This document shows, one piece after another, positions 1-23,818 of a stretch of DNA of 24,648 nt; the stretch's first letter is position 1; each line of letters starts with the position of its first letter. The position numbers and the translations under genes were made by a program. The notes under the pieces were generated by a model. It was not told the DNA's origin and did no database searches. It saw only the letters and a list, made by a program, of their open reading frames with translations. The stretch covers positions 1 through 24,648 of the IMG/VR virus record IMGVR_UViG_3300049255_000596. One strand, given 5' to 3'. Source of the stretch: a virus.

Positions 1-567
1 TCAGGACCCGGGCGAGAGGGTGACCATCGCGACGCCCTGGCCGAGGATGCCGAGGGCAGCGGCGGCGCCGCGGCTGAGGTCGATGATGCGGCTGCGCGTG
101 CCCGGGCGATCGGTGATCGTGACGGTAATTGACCTGTCGGAGTTGTGCAGGGCAACCCGGACTTTGCTGCCGAGCGGGAGCGTGGCGTGGGCGGCGGTAA
201 GGGCGTTCTCGTCGTACCGGGTGCCGCTGCTGGTACGATTGCCTTGCCAGCGTTTGCCGCCATACCATGAAGCTGCGCCGGTCTGTTTCCAGCCGGCTTC
301 GCCGGTCGGGCTCTCGGTGTAGCTGAACCCGTCATCGACGAAAGCCGTTGTGACCGGGGCCGGGCCCGTGCGTCGACGCGGACCGGCGGCGCTTTTCTGA
401 TGCCGGGCGTTGGCGGCGGGCCGGCGATGTTCGGCGACGTTCGATTTCCGCGTGGCGTCGGTGGTGTCTTGCGGGGGACCGGCCTGAGCAGTGGCGGTGA
501 GCATCGGGCCAGCCAGCAGCATGGAAACGAGCACGCCCGGGAATACCCGGCTTGCGCGTGAGATCAT
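1..567 (-). CDS. rlpA: RlpA-family septal ring lytic transglycosylase-like protein
   Basis: A 188-residue secreted protein with a double-psi beta-barrel domain of the RlpA type. Family members act in the periplasm on peptidoglycan glycan strands, often on denuded strands at the septum. Residues 1-29 look like a signal peptide ending in AQA. The barrel spans about residues 97-186 and shows ASWYGGK, TSSG-RYD, ALTAAH-TLPLG and RIIDLSRGAA. The conserved His (H127) and Asp (D153) matching the known catalytic pair are both kept, although the usual NDRGP stretch reads TDRPG. There is no lipobox Cys and no SPOR domain, so it is a minimal form. The ATG at 567 follows a good minus-strand ribosome site (GGGGAG). 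It points away from the phage operon, so it may be a host gene beside the prophage or an early-region wall enzyme of the phage. The fold is secure; ownership is not. Confidence 0.88.
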   Translation of the reverse strand: MISRASRVFPGVLVSMLLAGPMLTATAQAGPPQDTTDATRKSNVAEHRRPAANARHQKSAAGPRRRTGPAPVTTAFVDDGFSYTESPTGEAGWKQTGAASWYGGKRWQGNRTSSGTRYDENALTAAHATLPLGSKVRVALHNSDRSITVTITDRPGTRSRIIDLSRGAAAALGILGQGVAMVTLSPGS

Positions 568-5555: not shown

Positions 5556-6878
5556 ATGGGCATTCAGAATTTTCCGGCGGCGCTGCAGCCGATCATCCAG
5601 CAGGGGTTCCTGGAGCGCGAGTTCCAGTCGGCGCTGAACAGCCGGCTCGGCTACCGCGCGGTCGCCGACCGCGTGGAATTCGCGGTCGGCATCGGCGAGA
5701 CGCTGACCAAAACCCGCGCCGGGCTGAAGCCGAGCATCACCACGCCGCTGTCGCCCTCGACCAACACCAACCTGGACAACGGGCTGACGCCGGCGGGGTT
5801 CAATGTCGAGCAATACACCATCACGCTGAACTTCTATGCGGCGACCGCCGATCTGAACATGGTGACGAGCCGTGTCGGCATCGCCAGCCAGTTCCTGCTG
5901 AACGCCGCGATCAACGGCGAGCAGGCGGCACGCAGCCTTGACGAACTGGCGCGCAACGCGCTGTTCAACAGCTATTTCGGCGGCAACACCCGCGTGCGCT
6001 CGACGCTCGGCTCGCCGGGCACGGCGGTGGCGGTGGACGACATCCGTGGTTTCACCAGCGTGTTCGTCAACGGCGTGCCGAGTGCGGTGAGCAGCGGCAA
6101 TCCGCTGACCGTGACGGTCGGCAGCGACGCCTATTCGCTGGTGGGCGTGAGCGCCGACGGCAGCAACGTCTCGACCGCGCCGAACGGCATTTCGGGCGTG
6201 TTGACCTTCGGCACCTCGGTGACGGTGGCCGACGCGACCGCTGGCAACGTGGTGACGGCGGCGACGGCGAGTGCGATCGTGCGGCCGAATTCACGTACCT
6301 GCACGACGCAGATCATCGCGACCGACCTGCTCGACATGGCGACGCTGCTGAATGCCGTCTCGACCCTGCGGCTGAACGCGGTGCCGGAGATTGACGGCGC
6401 GTATAACTGCTATCTTGACCCGGTGAGCGCGCGGCAACTGTTCGGCGACGAGGCATTCCGGCAGTTGTTCACCGGTGCCACCAGCGCCAACCAGGTGTTC
6501 AAGCAGGGCATGGTGAACGATTTCCTTGGCCTGCGCTTCATTCCGACGACAGAGGCGTTCGTGACGGCGAACCCGGCGATCACCGGTGGCCTGATCCGCC
6601 GGCCGATCGTGTGCGGCAAGGGGGCGTTGATCGAGGGCGACTTCGCCGGGTTGGCGGAATCGGACGTGGCACCGAAGGACAGCATCATCTCGGTGGTGGA
6701 CGGTGTCGCGATGGTGACGCGCGAGCCGATCGATCGGCTGCAGCAGATCATCGCGCAGAGCTGGTACTGGATCGGCGGCTTCACTACGCCGAGCGACACG
6801 ACCACCAGCCCGACCACGATCCCGACGGCGACCAACGCCGCGTTCAAGCGCGCGGTGATGGTGGAGCACGCCGGCTGA
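5556..6878 (+). CDS. Major capsid protein
   Basis: The 440-residue coat protein that builds the icosahedral head. The frame is open 100 codons further upstream, but the ATG at 5556 follows CACGAGGA with good spacing and the upstream part is palindrome and leader sequence. The N-terminal region (MGIQNFPAALQPIIQQGFLE) and SLDELARNALFNSYFGGNT are typical of the core. Residues about 170-245 form a Thr/Val/Gly-rich insertion (VNGVPSAVSSGNPLTVTVG and on) that looks like a small beta domain on the capsid surface. The C-terminal part carries YNCYLDPVSARQLFGDEAF, VNDFLGLRFIPTTEAF and DRLQQIIAQSWYWIGGF. Resemblance to N4-gp56-like or HK97-fold coat proteins is inferred from pattern and position. It ends in a conserved-looking FKRAVMVEHAG. 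Confidence 0.92.
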   Translation: MGIQNFPAALQPIIQQGFLEREFQSALNSRLGYRAVADRVEFAVGIGETLTKTRAGLKPSITTPLSPSTNTNLDNGLTPAGFNVEQYTITLNFYAATADLNMVTSRVGIASQFLLNAAINGEQAARSLDELARNALFNSYFGGNTRVRSTLGSPGTAVAVDDIRGFTSVFVNGVPSAVSSGNPLTVTVGSDAYSLVGVSADGSNVSTAPNGISGVLTFGTSVTVADATAGNVVTAATASAIVRPNSRTCTTQIIATDLLDMATLLNAVSTLRLNAVPEIDGAYNCYLDPVSARQLFGDEAFRQLFTGATSANQVFKQGMVNDFLGLRFIPTTEAFVTANPAITGGLIRRPIVCGKGALIEGDFAGLAESDVAPKDSIISVVDGVAMVTREPIDRLQQIIAQSWYWIGGFTTPSDTTTSPTTIPTATNAAFKRAVMVEHAG

Positions 6879-6939
6879 GGGCTGCTGTTGGCGGTTGGGT
6901 GAAGGGTGGGCCGCACTCAGGCCCGCCCCCTCCCGCTGG

Positions 6940-6962
6940 CCCCCTCCCGCAAGGGGAGGGGG
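6940..6962 (+). other. GC-rich hairpin downstream of the capsid gene
   Basis: A perfect nine-base stem, CCCCCTCCC (6940-6948) with GGGAGGGGG (6954-6962), encloses a GCAAG loop. It lies in the 110-base gap after the capsid stop and close to the ribosome site of the next gene. Without a T-run it is not a classical terminator; it may block 3' exonucleases and raise capsid mRNA relative to downstream genes. Confidence 0.5.
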
Positions 6963-6988
6963 AATAGCTTCCCATCCGGGAGTTGGGC

Positions 6989-7384
6989 ATGTCCGGCAGT
7001 TTGGCGACGGTGTTCACTGACGCGCAGAAGACCGATATCCGGCGCTACTGCGGCTACCCGGCCTATGGCGCGGGAGCCTCGGGGTTTCAGGGGTGGCGAT
7101 TCTTCCAGGCGTACGGGCTGCTGGAATTTCGCTTGAACAATCTATCGCCCGCTGAGATCGCAGTGGCGACCAACTATCTTGCTACGTTGGCGATGCTGGA
7201 ATGCGCCGTGCCCGATGCCAGCACGCGCCTCGATACTGCCGAAGCGGCGGTGTGGACGCGCAATCCGTACGAGGTGCGCGAGCGCGCCGCGTTGTTCGAT
7301 GATTGGCGGCGGCGGCTGTGCGCGTTCCTCGGCCTGCCGCCGGGGCCGGGTCTTGGCGACGGCACGCTCGCGCTGGTGGTGTGA
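6989..7384 (+). CDS. Putative head-tail connector protein
   Basis: A 131-residue protein directly after the capsid gene. It begins MSGSLATVFTDAQKTDIRRYCGYPAYG, contains WRFFQAYGLLEFRLNNLS, and continues as a mostly helical chain with RERAALFDDWRRRLCAFLGLPPG near the end. Connector (adaptor) proteins that dock under the portal are small, helical and encoded here. I recognise no signature motif, so the role comes from position, size and predicted helix content. The ATG at 6989 is preferred over an in-frame TTG at 6983 and follows GGGAG. Its TGA overlaps the next ATG (TGATG), which suggests coupled translation with the following neck gene. Confidence 0.65.
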   Translation: MSGSLATVFTDAQKTDIRRYCGYPAYGAGASGFQGWRFFQAYGLLEFRLNNLSPAEIAVATNYLATLAMLECAVPDASTRLDTAEAAVWTRNPYEVRERAALFDDWRRRLCAFLGLPPGPGLGDGTLALVV

Positions 7385-8049
7385 TGCTCGATACGTATGC
7401 GGTACCAGACGCGATCCGGCGGGGCCTGGGGCTGGCAGCGCGGGCGGTGGGGGACTGGTGCGACCTGTATCGGCCGAACGGCGCGACGGCACCGCTCGGT
7501 GCCGACAAGCGCATCCTGCGTCTGCCGGCGGCGTTCGCCAACCCGCAGGGGTTCAAAATGCCTGTGGGCTACGGCGATGCGCTGTGGGAGGGCTATTTCG
7601 ATACCGCCTACTCGCGCGCCGGCGACTATATCGGCGGGCCGGACGGGGTGTTCTTCATTGCTTCGCAGCCGCGACTGGGGCCGGTGCTGTGCGTGAAGAC
7701 CAACCGTGTGCTGAGCCTGGCGCGGCCAGCGGCGCCGGTGTTGGCGGGCATGAACGGCTATGTCGGTGTGCTTCCGGCGGCGGTGACGCCGCTCATGAGC
7801 CTCTGGCCGGCGAGCGTGCTGGCGGCCGGCCAGGGCGGGCGCGGGGCGTTGCCGGGCGATGCGCCTGGGCTGCTCGGCGGCGCCGGCGGCTGGGCGGTGT
7901 TGCTGCCGGCCGCGGGTGTGGATGACCAAGCGGTGCTGCTGCGGCCGGGCGACCTCGCGCATGACGAGCTGGGCCGATCCGGTGTCGTGTCGAGCGCGGA
8001 ACTGACCGAGCTTGGCTGGCGGCTGCACGTTCGGCAGGCGGCAAGCTGA
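7384..8049 (+). CDS. Putative phage neck protein
   Basis: A 221-residue protein with the pattern DWCDLYRPNGATAPLG, then LPAAF, then YGDALWEGYFDTAYSRAGDYIGG, FFIASQPRLGPVLCVKTNRV and a Gly/Ala-rich second half ending LTELGWRLHVRQAAS. The DLYRP start and the central beta-rich segment resemble head-closure or stopper proteins that seal the connector after packaging. That is a position-based inference; I cannot assign a named family. It overlaps its neighbours at both ends through TGATG junctions (7384 and 8049), so connector, neck and the next protein are probably made together in similar amounts. Confidence 0.6.
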   Translation: MLDTYAVPDAIRRGLGLAARAVGDWCDLYRPNGATAPLGADKRILRLPAAFANPQGFKMPVGYGDALWEGYFDTAYSRAGDYIGGPDGVFFIASQPRLGPVLCVKTNRVLSLARPAAPVLAGMNGYVGVLPAAVTPLMSLWPASVLAAGQGGRGALPGDAPGLLGGAGGWAVLLPAAGVDDQAVLLRPGDLAHDELGRSGVVSSAELTELGWRLHVRQAAS

Positions 8050-8937: not shown

Positions 8938-10509
8938 ATGCCGATCGTGCAGCAGAGCAGCATCAACACGACCGCTCTCGTGGTGCCCGACCTCTACGTG
9001 CAGATCGTCCCGCCGCAGAACTTGCTGCTGAACGGGGTGCCCACGGACATCGTGGGCGTCGTCGGCAGCGCGAGCTGGGGGCCGGTGGGGCAGCCGGTGA
9101 TCGTGGCCACGATGTCCGACTACGCCAGCAGCTTCGGGCCACTGGTGGCGCGCGCATTTGACATGGGCACGCAGGTGGCGACCGCGGTGCAGCAGGGGGC
9201 GCAGAACTTCCGCTGCGTGCGGGCGACCGATGGCACCGACACTGCGGCGCACCTGACGCTGCCGGGGACCAGTTTCACTTTCACTGGGTTGTATACCGGC
9301 AGTCTCGGCAACGGCATCAGCGTGGCGTTGTCGAGCGGCAGCAAGGCCAGCACCTGGCGGCTGACGGTCGTGCTACCCGGGTTGCAGCCAGAAATATACG
9401 ACAACATCGCGGGCACCGGCGCGCAGTTCTGGACCGCGCTGGCGAACGCCGTCAACGCCGGGCAGGGATTGCAACGCGGGCCAAGCGGCATTGTGAAGGC
9501 GAGCACAGGCGGCACGGCGACCATGGCGGCGGCGTTCGCGTATTCCTTCAGTAGTGGCGTCCCAGGTTCCGACGGCGCCACGGGCGTGACGGCGACCACG
9601 CTGGTGGGCCTAGACGTCGCGCCGCGCACCGGCATGTATGCGCTCCGCGGGCAGGGATGCAGCATTGGACTGCTGGCGGACGCGACCGATCCGACGCAGT
9701 GGACGACGCAGGCGGCATTCGGATTGTCCGAGGGCGTCTACATGATCCTGACCGGTCCGGCCGGCGACAATATCGCGAACGCGGTGAGCACCAAGCAGTC
9801 GGCGGGGCTGGATACCTATGCGTGCAAGCTGATGTTCGGTGATTGGATCTGGTGGAACGACCCGGTGAACGCGGTGCTGCGGGTGGTCAGCCCGCAGGGA
9901 TTCGTGGCCGGACGGCTGGCCAATCTCAGCCCCGAGCAGAGCAGCCTGAACAAGCCGCTGTATTCCGTGGTGGGTAGCCAGCTCAGCGGCACGCCGGGCG
10001 CCGGGCAGAGCACCAGCTATGCGGCCGCGGATCTGGGAGTGCTGTTCCTTGCCGGAATCGACGTGATCGCCAATCCGCAGCCGGGTGGCTCGTTCTGGGG
10101 TGTGCGCGGCGGGTTCAACGCGTCATCCAATCAGGCGGCAAACACCGACAACTACACGCGTCTGACCAACTACATCGCGGCGACCCTTGCGTCAGGCATG
10201 GGGCAGTATGTTGGGCAACTGGTCAACGCCGACCTGTTCCGCCGGATCCGCGCGACCCAGTTGAGCTTCCTGCAGGGGATGCTGTCGCAGGGGCTGCTCG
10301 GCAGTACCGACGGCAGCCTGCCGTTCAGCGTGATCTGCGACACCAGCAACAATCCGCCGGCTCGCACCGGACTCGGCTACGTGCAAAGCGATGCACAGGT
10401 GCAGTACCAGGCAATCAACGAATTCTTCATTGTCAACATCGAGGGTGGACAGACAGTGCAGGTGCAGGCACAGGTGTTGCCGAACACGCCAGGTGCGCTC
10501 GCGGCATAG
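8938..10509 (+). CDS. Contractile tail sheath protein
   Basis: The 523-residue sheath subunit that wraps the tail tube and contracts to drive it through the host envelope. The N-terminus (VPDLYVQIVPPQNLLLNGVPTDIVGVVGSASWGPVGQPV) is the typical sheath start, with the strand that exchanges between subunits. A beta-rich insertion covers about residues 100-210. The C-terminal domain carries NYTRLTNYIAATLASGMGQYVGQ, DLFRRIRATQLSFLQGMLSQG and the last exchanged strand (NEFFIVNIEGGQTVQVQAQV). A strong GGAGGA lies 11 bases before the ATG. Its presence assigns the phage to the contractile-tail type. Confidence 0.97.
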   Translation: MPIVQQSSINTTALVVPDLYVQIVPPQNLLLNGVPTDIVGVVGSASWGPVGQPVIVATMSDYASSFGPLVARAFDMGTQVATAVQQGAQNFRCVRATDGTDTAAHLTLPGTSFTFTGLYTGSLGNGISVALSSGSKASTWRLTVVLPGLQPEIYDNIAGTGAQFWTALANAVNAGQGLQRGPSGIVKASTGGTATMAAAFAYSFSSGVPGSDGATGVTATTLVGLDVAPRTGMYALRGQGCSIGLLADATDPTQWTTQAAFGLSEGVYMILTGPAGDNIANAVSTKQSAGLDTYACKLMFGDWIWWNDPVNAVLRVVSPQGFVAGRLANLSPEQSSLNKPLYSVVGSQLSGTPGAGQSTSYAAADLGVLFLAGIDVIANPQPGGSFWGVRGGFNASSNQAANTDNYTRLTNYIAATLASGMGQYVGQLVNADLFRRIRATQLSFLQGMLSQGLLGSTDGSLPFSVICDTSNNPPARTGLGYVQSDAQVQYQAINEFFIVNIEGGQTVQVQAQVLPNTPGALAA

Positions 10510-10591: not shown

Positions 10592-11020
10592 ATGTCAGGC
10601 AGCATGTTTTCCATTGGCCGCGACAGTCAGGTCGTGGTGCTTGGCGCCTATGGCCGGGTCGATCTGGCGCACGTCACCGGCTTCGAGGCGCGGCAGCTTA
10701 CGGCTTCCGTTCGGGTCGACCGCATCGACGGCGTGCAACTCGGTGTGGAGCTGCCGAAAGGCTGGGATGGGCATTTTGATCTGGAGCGGGGCAACTCCGC
10801 AGCCGAGGATTTCATTGCGCAACTCGAGGCCGATTTTCACGCCGGCAACTCGCCGGCGCCGGGGACTCTTTATCAGTACATCGTCGAATCCGACGGTTCC
10901 ACCAGCACCTACCAGTTCGACAATGCGGTTTTCCGGATGGCGAATGCTGGTACTTGGCGCGGTGATGCCAGCGTGAAGCAGCGACTGGAGTTCTTTGCCA
11001 GCACGCGGGTGCGGATGTGA
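10592..11020 (+). CDS. Tail tube protein
   Basis: A 142-residue protein of the size usual for tubes of contractile tails; it forms stacked hexameric rings inside the sheath. It begins MSGSMFSIGRDSQVVVLGAYGRVDL, has alternating beta strands and an ELPKGWDGHFDLERGN loop, and ends in SVKQRLEFFASTRVRM, the form expected for a tube strand closing the ring. It follows the sheath gene in the standard order, and a GAGGATACCC leader precedes its ATG. Its stop overlaps the start of the tail-chaperone gene (TGATG at 11018-11022). Confidence 0.93.
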   Translation: MSGSMFSIGRDSQVVVLGAYGRVDLAHVTGFEARQLTASVRVDRIDGVQLGVELPKGWDGHFDLERGNSAAEDFIAQLEADFHAGNSPAPGTLYQYIVESDGSTSTYQFDNAVFRMANAGTWRGDASVKQRLEFFASTRVRM

Positions 11021-11367
11021 TGGCCAGCCCTTCGGCACGGCTGGTGGCGGCGGCGCAGGCGGCGCCGACGGTGACCGACGCGCAGGGTCGGGTCCTGGTA
11101 CTGAGGCGGCTCACGGCGCTCGACAAGCTGCGACTGTTCAAGGCGGCGGGGCCGGTGCTGGCACAGAATCAGTCGTGGCTGGGCATGGCGGTGCTGGCCG
11201 CGAGCGTGACCGCCATTGACGACGTGCCGGTGCCGCAACCGGCGACCGAGGGGCAGATCGAGGCGCTGGTCGGGCGCCTCGGCGACAGCGGGATCGCCGC
11301 GGCGGCAGCGGCGCTCGCCGAGACGCAGTCGAGTGCTGCAGATATGGCGGCCGCAGCGGGAAACTGA
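11020..11367 (+). CDS. Tail assembly chaperone, short form
   Basis: A 115-residue protein, MASPSARLVAAAQ through LRRLTALDKLRLFKAAG to AETQSSAADMAAAAGN. Small Ala-rich helical proteins at this spot, between tube and tape-measure genes, act as assembly chaperones like lambda gpG or P2 gpE: they coat the tape measure before the tube polymerises. RRLTALDKLRLFKAAGPVLA is typical of the N-domain. The zero-frame product ends at a TGA (11365-11367) directly after a slippery heptamer, so this is the major form and a minority of ribosomes go on to the long form. The ATG at 11020 overlaps the tube stop; a GTG directly before it is an alternative start. Confidence 0.88.
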   Translation: MASPSARLVAAAQAAPTVTDAQGRVLVLRRLTALDKLRLFKAAGPVLAQNQSWLGMAVLAASVTAIDDVPVPQPATEGQIEALVGRLGDSGIAAAAAALAETQSSAADMAAAAGN

Positions 11368-11540
11368 GCCGGCACCCCGATCTGGTCGACTGTCTGTTCC
11401 TGATACGGAACGGGGTGCCGTTCGACGTGGCGTTCTGCCTTTCGCCGGAGGAACGGCTGGCCTTCGTGGTGGCACTTGGCCGGCTGGACGGCGGAGAGTT
11501 CGACTTTACGTCGCTGCGCTGGAAGGAACGGAAAGCGTGA
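11020..11540 (+). CDS. Tail assembly chaperone, -1 frameshift fusion
   Basis: A 173-residue fusion made by -1 frameshifting at GGGAAAC (11358-11364). In zero frame the codons are GCG-GGA-AAC-TGA. After the slip they read GGG-AAA-CTG-AGC, and the -1 frame stays open to the TGA at 11538-11540. The added 58 residues read LSRHPDLVDCLFLIRNGVPF, then DVAFCLSPEERLAFVVALGRLDGG and EFDFTSLRWKERKA, a compact well-formed domain like the T part of lambda gpGT. In that system the fusion recruits tube protein to the chaperone-coated tape measure. The extension has no plausible start of its own. Join: 11020-11363 read in zero frame with slippage at the heptamer, then 11364-11540. Confidence 0.87.
11358..11364 (+). 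promoter_or_regulatory. Ribosomal -1 frameshift site GGGAAAC
   Basis: The heptamer fits the X-XXY-YYZ rule and is close to the lambda G/T site GGGAAAG. A stop codon follows immediately, and the coding signal changes to the -1 frame exactly here. GC-rich sequence downstream could add a stimulating structure, but I could not fold it reliably. Confidence 0.88.
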
Positions 11541-12412
11541 GCGGAATCGAGAAGGATGAGACCGATGTACCCGAGCCGGACGCGCCGGGCTTGGCGCTGC
11601 CGCTGGGTGACAGGTTGGGCGAGGCGATTGAAGCGGCGGCGGCGACACTGGCAACTGTACAGGCTGCGGCCGATCGCGTGTTGGGCGGGCTCTCTCGGTT
11701 TCAGACGGCGGGATCCTCGGCTTTGGCCGTGCCAGTCGCCAAGGTTGCGTTGGGTCCCTTGGGCTCGTCGGCTGTTGCAGAGGCGGTCGCGGACCGTCCA
11801 ACCATCGCGCCGACATCTTCCGCCGACGCACAAGGCGAAAGCGAGTCGCCTGCGCGACATGCAGCAGTCGCGTCACAGTCAGAGATTATGGCGCCGGCGC
11901 AGGCATTCGCTCGCTCTTTCCCATCGGCGGGGACATCAGGGGGCGGGTGGCGGCCGGTATCGGCGGCGCCCGCGCTACTGGCGTCATTTGCACCGCAGGC
12001 GCCTGTTGTGCCGTTGCGAGACACGGATCTGCCGAAGATCGCTTGGCCGGGGTCTGCGGCGCCGCCGGGCGACTTGTTCGGGTGTGGCGTTTCGCCGCTG
12101 GAGCGCGGTTCGGTCACGCCGGGCGATTCCGCGGCCCCGCAGGTGCCGGCTCCCGGATCTGTGGAGTTTGGCGCCCGGACGACGTCGGAAACATCGGCCG
12201 CTTCACGTGGCCCGGCGTCGCCGATGGCGCAGCGACGGCTCGGCGCGAGCACGGGTGGACCGACTGGAGGCGACGTTTACCTCGACGGCACGCGCATGGG
12301 CACCTGGATTGCCGACTATCTGGCGCGGGAGGCCGGCCGGCCGCAATCCGGCGGCACCGGGTTCGATCAGCGGCTGACCGCGCCCTGGCCAGGCACACTG
12401 CAGGGAGGCTGA
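11537..12412 (+). CDS. Short protein in the tape-measure position
   Basis: A 291-residue protein starting at a GTG that overlaps the chaperone stop as GTGA, with GGAAGGAA upstream. The N-terminal 60 residues are helical (LGEAIEAAAATLATVQAAAD). A long Ala/Pro/Ser-rich, low-order middle follows (about residues 60-240), then a compact C-terminal motif, GGDVYLDGTRMGTWIADYLA with RPQSGGTGFDQR and WPGTLQGG. Gene order puts it where the tape measure belongs, right after the frameshifted chaperone and before the hub genes. It is far shorter than common tape measures and lacks long heptad repeats, so it may be a very short tape measure or a different tail protein. The C-terminal motif looks conserved and could bind the hub. 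Confidence 0.6.
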   Translation: MSGIEKDETDVPEPDAPGLALPLGDRLGEAIEAAAATLATVQAAADRVLGGLSRFQTAGSSALAVPVAKVALGPLGSSAVAEAVADRPTIAPTSSADAQGESESPARHAAVASQSEIMAPAQAFARSFPSAGTSGGGWRPVSAAPALLASFAPQAPVVPLRDTDLPKIAWPGSAAPPGDLFGCGVSPLERGSVTPGDSAAPQVPAPGSVEFGARTTSETSAASRGPASPMAQRRLGASTGGPTGGDVYLDGTRMGTWIADYLAREAGRPQSGGTGFDQRLTAPWPGTLQGG

Positions 12413-19140: not shown

Positions 19141-19174
19141 TTTCATGCCCCATTTGCTCCCTGGGAGTTTGCTG

Positions 19175-22100
19175 ATGCCCACCGTGCAGCAGTTGCCGCA
19201 GACTACCACAGTCAACCCGACCGACGAGCTGATGCTCGACCAATCTGGCGTCAGCGTCTCGGCGAGCGTCGCCCAGTTGCTGGCAGCCGGCTCGGCTGCG
19301 CTGACGCTGACCGGTGACGTGACCGGCTCCGGGACAGGCACCATCGTGACGACACTGGCGCCGGTCGCTACGCCCGGCACCTTCAGCAAGGTGACAGTCA
19401 ACGCCAAAGGCCTGGTTACCGGCGGCGGCTCGGTGGCGAGTGCGGATGTGGTGGAGGCGCTCGGCTATACTCCGTACAACGCTGCCAACCCAGCCGGATA
19501 TGTCGCACCGAGCGGACTGGCGCGGGTCGCGTCCAGCGGCAACTATGGCGATCTGGCCGGTACGCCAGCATTTGGTAGCATGGCTGCGCAGAACGCGAGC
19601 GCCGTTGCGATCACCGGGGGCACGATCGGCGGCGTCGACTTCTCCAGCGTTGTCGTGGAGGCGGTCGGCAGCACCACCCCACGCAGCCTTGCCACGCGAG
19701 CCGCGGATTTTGTCAATGTGCTCGATTACGGAGCCGACCCGTCGGGGATTGCCGACAGCGCACCGGCTTTCCTGGCAGCGATGAATTCGATCCCAAGCGG
19801 CGGTTGGGGCAAGCTTGTCGTTCCGCACGGCACATACCGTCTGAATAGCTTTCTCAATACGCCATCTGGACGTTCGGTCGCGGTGGTGTTCGAGGACGGC
19901 GCAATCACCATCGGCAGCGGTGGACTGGGTGTGGACCGGGTGGAGAGCCGCCAGGGCCCGTTCAGCCTCTGGCAGGGCGGCGGCGGTTGGTTCGGTTTCT
20001 CGCCTACCGTCGGCGCGCCGCAGGACTACGCGTTCAACACGCAGATTATCGGGAACACGGCGGGCAATAGCGGGGCTACGCGCATCGGCTGGTCACGCAA
20101 TTATACCAATTACAACTACTACGGAAAATATTCCTCCGGCATTGATTTTGCCGAGCAAAGCATTTATTCGTGGCCGCACACCTACGACAATTCATCGGGC
20201 TGGGGTCACTGGGAAATAATTACCGGCACGACGTATGACGAGGATAGCGTACACCGTGCGCACGTCAGCGCTTCAGCCGAGCATTCCGAGTTCGACATCG
20301 TCAGCAATGGACCCGAGGCGGGTTGGACCTTCCACTCCGGACTGGGCCTCGGCGTGCAGGGCATGTCCATCGATCCATGGGGGCAGAATGGTCTCTATGG
20401 CGGCAACATCCTGTTCGGCTTCGGCTCGGCCGGGTCGTTCGATGGCCAAAACGGCGGTCTCAACCAGCGCTGGCCGAGCTATCCCGCCGTGTTTTCAGCG
20501 GGCAACCCGACGGCCGTGGCACAGAACAGCACCGTCGTCATCACCTTTGATGCAACCGCGCATGCCACAGTCAGCGTGTCCGGCGGCGGCGTGAGTGCTG
20601 TTTCGGTGAGCAACGGCGGGGGCATTTATAGCTCCGTCCCCAGTGTCGTTTTCTCAGGTGGCGGAGGCAGTGGCGCAGCCGGCACGCCGGTGATGCTGGC
20701 CGGTTCAATCGTAGGCGTGACGATCACCTCTTCCGGCAGTGGCTATAGCAGCGCGCCCGGCGTGAGCTTTACCGGCGGCGGCGTGGCTTCGCCCTCGCCG
20801 GTCACAGTCACGCTCAATCCGGATGGCGCGCACGGCGATCTTGCCTCGATCGCCGCGGCGATCAACGCGGCGACGATCCCCAACGTCGCAGCTGCCGTGT
20901 CGATCTGGGGTGGCGTGGTCAGCCGCCTGGTGGTGTTTGGCACCGCGCAGAACGATCTCGGCACGTTGACCTTGGGCGGCACTGCGCTTGGGGCGCTCGG
21001 CATCCCCCCACAGTCGTATGCGACGCTACGCGACACAATGACCGTGGTGTTGGGCGGCACTGGCGACGTGTCTGTCGATGACCAGTTGACCATCAACGGC
21101 ACCACCGTGACCGTGGGCGGCGCCGGCGCCCAGGCTGATGTGGTTAGCGCCATCACCGCCGCTAACCTCGAGGGCATCAAGGCCGACATCAACGCCAACG
21201 GGCGTTTCGTGCTGACTGCGTGGATTCCGCAGAATCCCGGCGGTCTGGTGCTGAGCCAACCATCGGGGTTCAGCACACTTGGAAAGCTCGGACTGACAGC
21301 CGGCACGTTCTGGCCGCCGACACCGCCAAAAGGGTTTGCCACCGCATACGGCGAACTGTCCTCGCCGGTCTGCCCCACCACCGATCAACTGAGCATTGCC
21401 GCGACCGATCTTGCCGGCAATACCTTTGGCCCGGTCACGGTAACTCTGAACGGTGGCGGTGGCAGCGGTTGGCCGGCCGATGTGGCGCTGTCGATCCAGG
21501 CGGCGCTGACTGCCGCCGGCTGGTATGGCAGCGGCTTCAACCTGCTGACGGCGCCACCGGCAATCGTGTCGACCCTGGTGCACGGTAGCGGCGGCAGCCA
21601 GGGGCTGGTCATCCGCAATACTGCCGGCGGCACGCTGACGCTTGCCAATGTCACCGGCACGCCGCTGGGCACGCTTGGCCTGGTGCCGGGGACCTATCAG
21701 CCGGGCGGCTTCTCGGCGGGATCGCAGAGCGTGTTCATGGCGGCAGAGGATTCGATCGCGGCACAAGGGCGCGGTGTATTTGTGGGTGGCGCCAGCACCG
21801 CCACGGACCGCACTGTCTGGCCGCACGCGCCGCTGGAAGCGCGCGGCAGCTTCCTGCACGGCCTGCGGATGGATAAGGCGACGTTTGACGACAACACGGC
21901 GCTGCTGCTTGGGGCCGGTCAGGCGATCGGCTTTGGCTCCGGTCCTGGCGCAGTGTCGCTGACCAACGCTTCGGGAACGTTTGAGGTGAACGGCACGCCG
22001 GTGGCGCTCGTGCCAGCCGTCCCGACTCACACGTCGCAGCTCACCAACGACACCGGATTCATCGCCGTTCCGGCAATCCCGTCTGGCGCGGGCACGTTAC

Positions 22101-23818
22101 TAGGGGCCACCGTTACCGCCGGCGCCGCCGCCACAATCATGGTGGGCAGCAATCTGAGCCTCGCCAGTGGCACGCTTTCAGCCACTGGCGGCGGCAGTGG
22201 CTCGGTCACCAGCGTCGTGGTGGGCGCCGGACTGGCCGGAGGCACCATTACCACAGCCGGCACGATCAGCCTGGACACGCTGCCGGGGGCGAGCCTGCTC
22301 GGCAATCCGGCTGGCACTGCCGCGGTGCCCGGCGTCGTCGCAATCGGCTCGGGCGTAACGCTGTCTGTGGGGGGCACACTTTCCAACGCCGGTGTATTGA
22401 GTTTCAATAGCCGCAGCGGCTCGGTTTCGCTCGCGTCGTCGGATGTCAGCGCGGCGCTTGGCTACACGCCGCTCTCGAACGCGGGCGGCACACTGTCCGG
22501 TACGTTCAGCAATTCCGGCACTATCTCGGGCGGGACTTGGGCGGGCGCCATTACGGCCGCAGGCACATTGTCGATCACCGGCGCCGCGACGGCGACGACG
22601 CAGGCAGCTGGCGACAACTCGACGAATTTGGCGACGACAGCCTACGTGTATCAGGCTACCTCGAACGCCAGCACCGTTGCCACAACTGGCGGCAGCGTCA
22701 CGCTTACCGCCGTTCAGTATGGCGCGCCGATCCTGCTGGCCACCGGCACGCTGGCTTCCGCCGCCACTTTCCTTGTGCCCAACAATGGCGATTGGATTGT
22801 AAGCAACCGCACCAGCGGTGCCTTCACGCTTTCGGTGAAGACTGCGTCCGGCACCGGGGTCGTGGTGGACCAGGGCTACTCCGTGCATCTGATTGCCGAC
22901 GGCACCGACGTCGTTTTTGCCACGACCGACTTCAACGGCATCACGTTGCAGGGAACTGTGACAAACGCCGGCACGATCAGCGGCGGCGCAATCGCGCCGT
23001 TGACAATCGTGGCGGGCACTGCCGGGTCGATGGTCACGGTGTCTCAGTCGGCCGACGCCGGCGGCTACCATCCTGTGGTGATTAAGGCCGGCGGCACCAA
23101 CAGCAATGTGCCGATGGTGCTGACGCCGGCCGGAGCAGGCTACATCGCCACCGCCTTGTCAGACGGCAGCAGCACCAATGGCAACCAGCGCGGCCAATAC
23201 TCGGTTGACTTGCAGCAGTCGCGCTCCGCCAACACACAAGTGGCCAGCGGAGCGTATGCTGCCTTGCCTGGCGGGGCGGGCAATACGGCAGGAGGGAACT
23301 ATAGCCTTGCGATGGGGCAGGGCAGCACGGCGACCGGCCAGGGCAGTGTCGCGCTTGGACAGTACTCCAATGACGGCGGCGCCTACGGCAAACTGGTCTT
23401 CTCCGCCAACGGCTCCGCGGTCGGCAACCAGCTTGCGGCGTCGACGCTGTATGTGTCCTCGGTGTCCGCGGCCACACGCATGACCTCCGACGGCAACGCC
23501 GCCGGAACCGCGAACAGCGTGCCGATTCGCAGCAACCACGTGATCGCCGGCACTCTGACGGTAGCGGTCCGCAATGTCTCGAACGGCGATGGCGCGTATT
23601 GGAGCATTCCCGTGCTGTTCAAGAACAGCGCCGGCACGGTCAGCGTGAGCAGCCCCGGCACGTCGGGGATCGCGCCGACGGTTGCCGACAGCTCGCTAAC
23701 CACGGCGAGCATCGCGATCGGCGCCGACAACACCAACAAGGGATTGTCGGTGACGATCACGCCGCCGACCAGCGTGACGGTCAACGCATCCGGCGTGTTC
23801 CTGGCGGCGGAGATGTAG
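19175..23818 (+). CDS. Very large mosaic tail fibre / tailspike-like protein
   Basis: A 1547-residue fibre, the largest gene here. The ATG at 19175 (MPTVQQLPQTTTVNPTDELM) follows GGGAG; an in-frame ATG at 19145 is less likely. Domain order: attachment head (1-60), a YTPYNAANPAGYV fibre repeat (about 100-120), a pectate-lyase-like start NVLDYGADPSGIADSAPAFLAA (about 180-205), an aromatic-rich region (about 250-430), Gly/Ser beta repeats (about 455-545), three modules resembling flagellin hook IN motifs (about 543-846, each closing with an LG-LGL-GTY type end), further stalk with YTPLSNAGGTLSG, and a C-terminal part with YadA-head-like Gly repeats (about 1360-1396, AMGQGSTATGQGSVALGQ). It probably binds and may degrade a surface glycan. 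No catalytic residues can be pointed to with confidence. Confidence 0.92.
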   Translation: MPTVQQLPQTTTVNPTDELMLDQSGVSVSASVAQLLAAGSAALTLTGDVTGSGTGTIVTTLAPVATPGTFSKVTVNAKGLVTGGGSVASADVVEALGYTPYNAANPAGYVAPSGLARVASSGNYGDLAGTPAFGSMAAQNASAVAITGGTIGGVDFSSVVVEAVGSTTPRSLATRAADFVNVLDYGADPSGIADSAPAFLAAMNSIPSGGWGKLVVPHGTYRLNSFLNTPSGRSVAVVFEDGAITIGSGGLGVDRVESRQGPFSLWQGGGGWFGFSPTVGAPQDYAFNTQIIGNTAGNSGATRIGWSRNYTNYNYYGKYSSGIDFAEQSIYSWPHTYDNSSGWGHWEIITGTTYDEDSVHRAHVSASAEHSEFDIVSNGPEAGWTFHSGLGLGVQGMSIDPWGQNGLYGGNILFGFGSAGSFDGQNGGLNQRWPSYPAVFSAGNPTAVAQNSTVVITFDATAHATVSVSGGGVSAVSVSNGGGIYSSVPSVVFSGGGGSGAAGTPVMLAGSIVGVTITSSGSGYSSAPGVSFTGGGVASPSPVTVTLNPDGAHGDLASIAAAINAATIPNVAAAVSIWGGVVSRLVVFGTAQNDLGTLTLGGTALGALGIPPQSYATLRDTMTVVLGGTGDVSVDDQLTINGTTVTVGGAGAQADVVSAITAANLEGIKADINANGRFVLTAWIPQNPGGLVLSQPSGFSTLGKLGLTAGTFWPPTPPKGFATAYGELSSPVCPTTDQLSIAATDLAGNTFGPVTVTLNGGGGSGWPADVALSIQAALTAAGWYGSGFNLLTAPPAIVSTLVHGSGGSQGLVIRNTAGGTLTLANVTGTPLGTLGLVPGTYQPGGFSAGSQSVFMAAEDSIAAQGRGVFVGGASTATDRTVWPHAPLEARGSFLHGLRMDKATFDDNTALLLGAGQAIGFGSGPGAVSLTNASGTFEVNGTPVALVPAVPTHTSQLTNDTGFIAVPAIPSGAGTLLGATVTAGAAATIMVGSNLSLASGTLSATGGGSGSVTSVVVGAGLAGGTITTAGTISLDTLPGASLLGNPAGTAAVPGVVAIGSGVTLSVGGTLSNAGVLSFNSRSGSVSLASSDVSAALGYTPLSNAGGTLSGTFSNSGTISGGTWAGAITAAGTLSITGAATATTQAAGDNSTNLATTAYVYQATSNASTVATTGGSVTLTAVQYGAPILLATGTLASAATFLVPNNGDWIVSNRTSGAFTLSVKTASGTGVVVDQGYSVHLIADGTDVVFATTDFNGITLQGTVTNAGTISGGAIAPLTIVAGTAGSMVTVSQSADAGGYHPVVIKAGGTNSNVPMVLTPAGAGYIATALSDGSSTNGNQRGQYSVDLQQSRSANTQVASGAYAALPGGAGNTAGGNYSLAMGQGSTATGQGSVALGQYSNDGGAYGKLVFSANGSAVGNQLAASTLYVSSVSAATRMTSDGNAAGTANSVPIRSNHVIAGTLTVAVRNVSNGDGAYWSIPVLFKNSAGTVSVSSPGTSGIAPTVADSSLTTASIAIGADNTNKGLSVTITPPTSVTVNASGVFLAAEM

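Follow-up and report, generated by a model that had tools for sequence, protein, structure and literature searches.

Two short, overlapping reading frames lying between a tail tube candidate and a tape-measure candidate raise the question of whether they encode two separate small proteins or the two parts of one tail assembly chaperone, joined by ribosomal frameshifting. The DNA is an IMG/VR virus record with a phage-like gene cluster, and the whole stretch of 24,648 bases that was analysed is referred to here as the window. An earlier note on this DNA had proposed a -1 frameshift. Our analysis indicates that a programmed -1 frameshift very probably yields a gpGT-like fusion as a minor product, alongside a gpG-like chaperone as the major one, a reading drawn from the site itself and from its relatives.

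Proposed frameshift site and predicted products

The zero-frame ORF, the gpG-like N-terminal part of the chaperone, occupies 11020..11367 on the plus strand and encodes 115 aa from an ATG overlapping with the tube gene's stop codon (TGATG), with an alternative GTG start at 11017. The slippery heptamer GGGAAAC (G_GGA_AAC), assigned by its phase and its conservation in relatives, lies at 11358..11364 on the plus strand and is immediately followed by the zero-frame stop TGA (11365..11367, plus strand). The frame of ORF 11017/11020-11367 reads G GGA AAC TGA, bearing out two claims of the earlier note, namely an in-phase GGGAAAC and a TGA directly after it. The -1-frame extension (11364..11540, plus strand), a gpT-like domain, comprises 58 codons (LSRHPDL...KERKA) plus TGA. 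This frame is open from the heptamer to the TGA at 11538-11540, giving 60 codons from GGG 11358 and 58 from CTG 11364, and contains no ATG, GTG or TTG between the upstream stop (~11217) and the heptamer. The frame read-out thus agrees with the 58-codon domain, beginning at the slip point and lacking its own start, that had been described before. The predicted fusion from ATG 11020 amounts to 115 + 58 = 173 aa, also as previously given.

One detail requires correction. The junction peptide had been given as GK-LSRHPDL, whereas that of the main product should read GN-LSRHPDL (...AAAGN-LSRHPDL), because tandem slippage would leave the A-site AAC already decoded as Asn; GK-LSRHPDL would arise only if slippage precedes AAC decoding. 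The bare heptamer is no evidence in itself, since GGGAAAC is expected 1.94 times per window by chance and is observed once; with roughly two occurrences expected, the case therefore rests on context and relatives. The position, phase and conservation of the heptamer are far beyond chance.

Conservation of the site among relatives

Scans with the tube protein and with the -1 domain gave 144 viral loci, and a slippery heptamer stands at the same codon in 143/143 viral sequences that have the -1 domain, the window included. The tube-protein scan, which made no use of the site, found the -1 domain together with the heptamer in 62/64 loci; in the other two (L064 and L065) no -1 domain was seen, their tube matches being partial and close to where the stored DNA ends. 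From GTDB genomes, a profile scan with patterns avoiding the heptamer added 80 loci, mostly from Acetobacteraceae or Rhodospirillales. Pooling the viral loci, the genomes and phage phiKX1 gave 175 sequences distinct at 95%, of which 174 carry the heptamer at the same codon, 153 as GGGAAAC and 21 as AAAAAAC, the replacement of GGG by AAA keeping the site slippery. The lysine codon at the site is AAA in 174/174 sequences, compared with 28 AAA to 99 AAG elsewhere in the -1 domain. A conserved heptamer in relatives was a check named beforehand, and the 174/175 distinct loci confirm it; relatives devoid of the slippery site and the -1 domain, named as the outcome that would speak against the frameshift, were looked for, and the relatives keep both.

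The cassette is likewise retained in diverged copies from complete genomes (L369-L372). One Acidiphilium genome has a still more distant copy (L346), in which AAAAAAC TGA is preserved and the precise sequence of the 5' stem arm is not. The sole relative without a heptamer, a MAG sequence (L192, ~5982), has also lost the 5' stem arm. Its 3' arm and both reading frames are intact, which is compatible with natural loss or with an assembly fault in the MAG.

In 149/175 distinct relatives a stop comes immediately after the heptamer; in the 26/175 without it, the next zero-frame stop lies mostly at +25. The immediate stop was considered as an invariant feature, being present in 93/98 sequences at first, and was rejected once more genomes had been added (149/175). 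CTA-G pairing was also discarded as demonstrating that the stop is under selection, as CTC-G and CTT-G occur too.

A constrained stem downstream of the heptamer

On the plus strand, a 6-nt spacer (11365..11370) separates the heptamer from the 5' arm of a putative stimulatory stem, GGCACCCC (11371..11378), whose 3' arm, GGGGTGCC, lies at 11412..11419. A ninth pair, G11379-C11411, brings the stem to 8-9 bp, beginning 6 nt 3' of the heptamer. The usual spacer for -1 frameshifting is 5-9 nt (PMC5009743), and the 6-nt spacer falls within this range.

Beyond the heptamer, codon counts place the frozen synonymous sites on the stem arms: arginine codon 5 is only CGG or AGG (155/155), glycine codon 19 is GGG in 173/175 sequences, and valine codon 20 is GTG in 175/175. 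In 83 clusters at 80% identity, synonymous sites are constrained across the heptamer and the two stem arms: codon homozygosity reaches 0.95-1.00 at codons 1, 2, 19 and 20 against 0.29-0.50 expected, and lies near expectation after codon 21. The six core stem pairs are intact in 81/83 clusters, whereas synonymous recoding keeps them in 5%, and paired cells make up 97.4% for the stem versus 40-51% for slid versions. One compensatory change was found in the stem, GGCACGCC/GGCGTGCC; covariation support is slight because the stem pairs vary little.

The strongest independent test searched IMG/VR for exact matches to the stem, leaving the heptamer out of the query, and returned at least 80 readable loci. 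Among the stem-only matches listed (at least 80 loci), a slippery heptamer stands exactly 6 nt upstream in 80/80, with every other heptamer-stem spacing occurring 0-3 times. As all of the stem-only loci listed (at least 80) were this cassette, the stem is a good fingerprint for such clusters. The local fold has z=-2.87; over a longer stretch of 141 nt the fold does not stand out (z=-0.25). No Rfam family matched at 11300-11560 up to E=1.

Within the stem loop (11380-11410), synonymous bias is also seen at codons 9, 10, 12 and 15 (CTG, ATC, TGC and CTG), hinting at further loop structure or a pseudoknot. An inner helix drawn by RNAalifold (columns 33-35/59-61) was rejected, being broken at one pair in 18/65. 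A Shine-Dalgarno-like 5' stimulator was likewise set aside as a general feature, with AGGA, GGAG or GAGG found upstream in only 56/175 relatives.

Gene neighbourhood and structural models

The genes surrounding the site follow, on the plus strand, the order sheath, tube candidate, frameshift pair and tape-measure-like ORF. The tail sheath of a contractile tail (8938..10509) is identified by phrog_23 tail sheath (E=7e-43), and the tail tube candidate directly upstream of the pair (10592..11020) matches PHROG 12993, which gives no function, its role being assigned from its position after the sheath. The tape-measure candidate, assigned by position, encodes 291 aa (11537..12412), and its GTG start overlaps the -1 stop. 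Relative L149 has a 420-aa ORF in the corresponding position (6536-7798), and the two are alike at the C-terminus, which reads GDVYLDGTRMGTWIADYLAREAGRP in the window. Tape-measure length usually sets tail length, and by this rule 291 aa, or the 420 aa of L149, would imply that the contractile tail is very short. An additional gene of ~120 aa precedes the tape-measure candidate in many relatives. The tail module closes with a 1557-aa ORF (19145-23818) that is repetitive, with a receptor-binding-like tail fibre composition.

The zero-frame protein matches PHROG 20383 (E=6e-24, function not given) and, as a weak, sub-threshold signal, phrog_508 tail assembly chaperone (E=0.007, 5/46 members). 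Its AlphaFold model has a mean pLDDT of 92, with the HK97 tail assembly chaperone 2OB9 as the top PDB fold neighbour, a non-significant match (E=0.44, TM 0.44); its best viral fold neighbours include Mu FS-gp41, also a weak match (Foldseek E=0.016, TMq 0.57). AlphaFold models the -1 domain confidently as small and helical (mean pLDDT 87.5). Foldseek gave this domain no significant match, a 49-aa phage protein scoring best (E=0.41), and neither PHROGs nor tblastn against the phages collection gave any. Pfam and NCBIfam gave nothing credible for either part, single matches such as eIF-5a and HydG being judged chance, and searching PDB sequences with the chaperone profile gave no match. The locus fits a tail assembly chaperone of the lambda G/GT type on the basis of gene order and the weak HK97 and Mu fold matches. 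The earlier reading as a lambda gpG/gpGT-type chaperone thereby gains support from location, from the phrog_508, 2OB9 and Mu FS-gp41 signals, weak as these are, and from the relatives.

Alternative explanations

Two alternatives would make the -1 domain a separate protein. In termination-reinitiation, ribosomes would stop at TGA 11365 and restart at the overlapping CTG 11364 (CTGA), releasing a 58-aa protein; this overlap resembles ATGA and GTGA coupling, and CTG is the commonest codon there (128/175). Restart is nevertheless disfavoured, because 47/175 relatives have another codon at this place, including CTA in 21, CTC in 17 and CTT in 8. The six preceding bases, moreover, stay slippery in all 174, and restarting ribosomes would have no need of AAA AAA or GGG AAA, nor of a fixed 6-nt spacing to the stem, which makes this course highly unlikely. 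An internal start at GTG 11415 (codon 20), giving a 41-aa protein, could appeal to the invariance of that GTG (175/175) and to GenBank, which starts the phiKX1 equivalent at an internal ATG (L146:4291) as a separate CDS. The invariance, however, is explained by pairing with the CAC of the 5' arm, CAT variants keeping the pair as G-U, and such a start is disfavoured because the strongly conserved residues before it (K2, L3, H6, L13 and L15) would be lost; we regard it as even less likely than restart at the CTG.

The remaining alternatives would join or separate the frames before translation. Transcriptional slippage at a run of A would produce mRNAs fusing the frames, and AAAAAAC, with its six-A run, occurs in 21 relatives. 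Against this, the GGGAAAC of 153 relatives offers no more than three consecutive A, and a run of three is too short for polymerase slippage; lacking a long run, GGGAAAC disfavours this explanation, and the conserved stem, at a distance typical of ribosomal frameshifting, is in keeping with an event at the ribosome, leaving transcriptional slippage a very slim chance. The metagenomic source, and L192 as the relative without the heptamer, might raise suspicion of an indel introduced by sequencing or assembly, or of a once-single gene in decay, but this explanation is refuted by the relatives: 174 distinct sequences share the frame change, and they come from many assemblies, isolate genomes and phiKX1 among them. 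Of all the alternatives it is the least probable, its likelihood being practically negligible.

Possible chromosomally fixed clusters in Acetobacteraceae

The head-and-tail cluster of the window spans 1630-24065 and has an rlpA-type lytic transglycosylase (PF03330) on its left flank (1-567, minus strand). A relative of this rlpA gene lies directly upstream of the same terminase, as in the window, in three of the seven genomes examined (G006, G007 and G008). The terminase and the -1 domain each occur once, ~9 kb apart, in 7/7 of these genomes, and no tyrosine integrase was found on the cluster-bearing contig among the matches listed for the seven. In one complete genome, an integrase lies some tens of kilobases away. 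The right flank of the cluster is not shared among the genomes compared. Across the family, the -1 domain was found in 61/150 genomes sampled; strong matches (E below 1e-24) are always single copy, while weaker E-values give up to three per genome. From the single-copy, rlpA-adjacent pattern without a listed integrase, some members of the group would seem to be particle clusters fixed in the chromosome and possibly resembling gene transfer agents. Similar Acetobacteraceae phage-like regions in peat moss metagenomes have been read as possible degraded prophages (PMC12142844).

Proposed mechanism and significance

In the favoured reading, programmed -1 frameshifting, most ribosomes would stop at TGA 11365 and release the 115-aa gpG-like chaperone. 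The stem (11371-11419) would hold up a fraction of ribosomes with GGA in the P site and AAC in the A site, and these would slip one base back onto GGG and AAA and read CTG next, producing the 173-aa gpGT-like fusion. We infer the shift, its partial efficiency and the stimulating role of the stem from a cassette whose presence, conservation and synonymous constraint are observed directly. By analogy with lambda, the short form would coat the tape measure and the extension would recruit tube subunits, which are thus the presumed binding partners. In E. coli, AAC is a poor slip codon in the A site compared with AAG (PMC5009743); given this weakness of A_AAC, the conserved stem may compensate.

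A more specific proposal is put forward tentatively and is rather unlikely to hold in full. It states that the near-invariant cassette (GGG or AAA, AAAC, usually a stop, a 6-nt spacer, GGCACCCC-N33-GGGGTGCC and perhaps loop pairing) might be particular to Acetobacteraceae phages and phage-derived clusters, might work with an AAC slip codon disfavoured by E. coli ribosomes, and might be carried partly by single-copy, apparently chromosomally fixed GTA-like clusters for contractile-tail particles. If the fixed-cluster reading is true, the frameshift would be maintained by the bacterium and not by an infectious phage.

With this locus, the tail chaperone frameshifts gain a large and well-defined family from the Alphaproteobacteria, together with a compact, strongly constrained putative stimulatory RNA that is absent from Rfam. 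Gene callers split such pairs, as with the phiKX1 halves in GenBank, and the conserved A_AAC site raises the question of slippage in bacteria other than E. coli.

Comparison with known systems

The frameshift of the lambda gpG/gpGT tail assembly chaperone uses G_GGA_AAG (Xu, Hendrix and Duda 2004, as related in PMC5009743 and PMC10885494). As far as these accounts go, lambda and the window have in common a small gene, sited between tail tube and tape measure, with a -1 shift close to its end, a short form plus a C-terminally extended form (predicted in the window), and an extension without a separate start. By the same accounts, the window differs in its slip codon, AAC compared with AAG, in the zero-frame stop immediately after the heptamer, in its short 58-aa extension and in its contractile tail. 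No sequence similarity of the pair to lambda G/T was detected. Mu FS-gp41 (UniProt P0DJY4) is, like the predicted window product, a frameshifted probable tail assembly protein of a contractile-tail phage, its likeness to the zero-frame part being a weak structural match only.

Both heptamers have been predicted for chaperone shifts elsewhere. Burkholderia phage KL1 has a predicted GGGAAAC shift with TGA directly after and a predicted downstream stem-loop (PMC3483164), Caulobacter phage Colossus and phage phiCbK have predicted shifts at GGGAAAC and AAAAAAC, respectively (PMC3556154), and further predictions are GGGAAAC in halovirus HCTV-1 (PMC5009743) and AAAAAAC in HCTV-2. KL1 and Colossus are siphoviruses, whereas the window cluster has a contractile tail, and the likeness of KL1, Colossus and HCTV-1 to the window rests on their heptamers and not on homology.

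Komagataeibacter phage phiKX1 (LC644975.1, L146), found through the tube protein only (34.5% identity), is homologous to the window in the tube, the zero-frame gene and the -1 domain (37% identity). It carries AAAAAACTGA at the same place, comprising AAAAAAC TGA, a 6-nt spacer and identical stem arms, and its tape measure (742 aa) is longer than the candidate in the window. In GenBank its halves (L146 3929-4276 and 4291-4470) are separate hypothetical CDS, the second from an internal ATG; judged by sequence, they should be one frameshifted CDS. PhiKX2 (LC644976) was matched by the tube protein only. The fixed GGCACCCC/GGGGTGCC stem has, as far as seen, no counterpart outside the present group. 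Frameshifts in tail chaperones are thus already well known, and what is new here is the family and its near-invariant stem.
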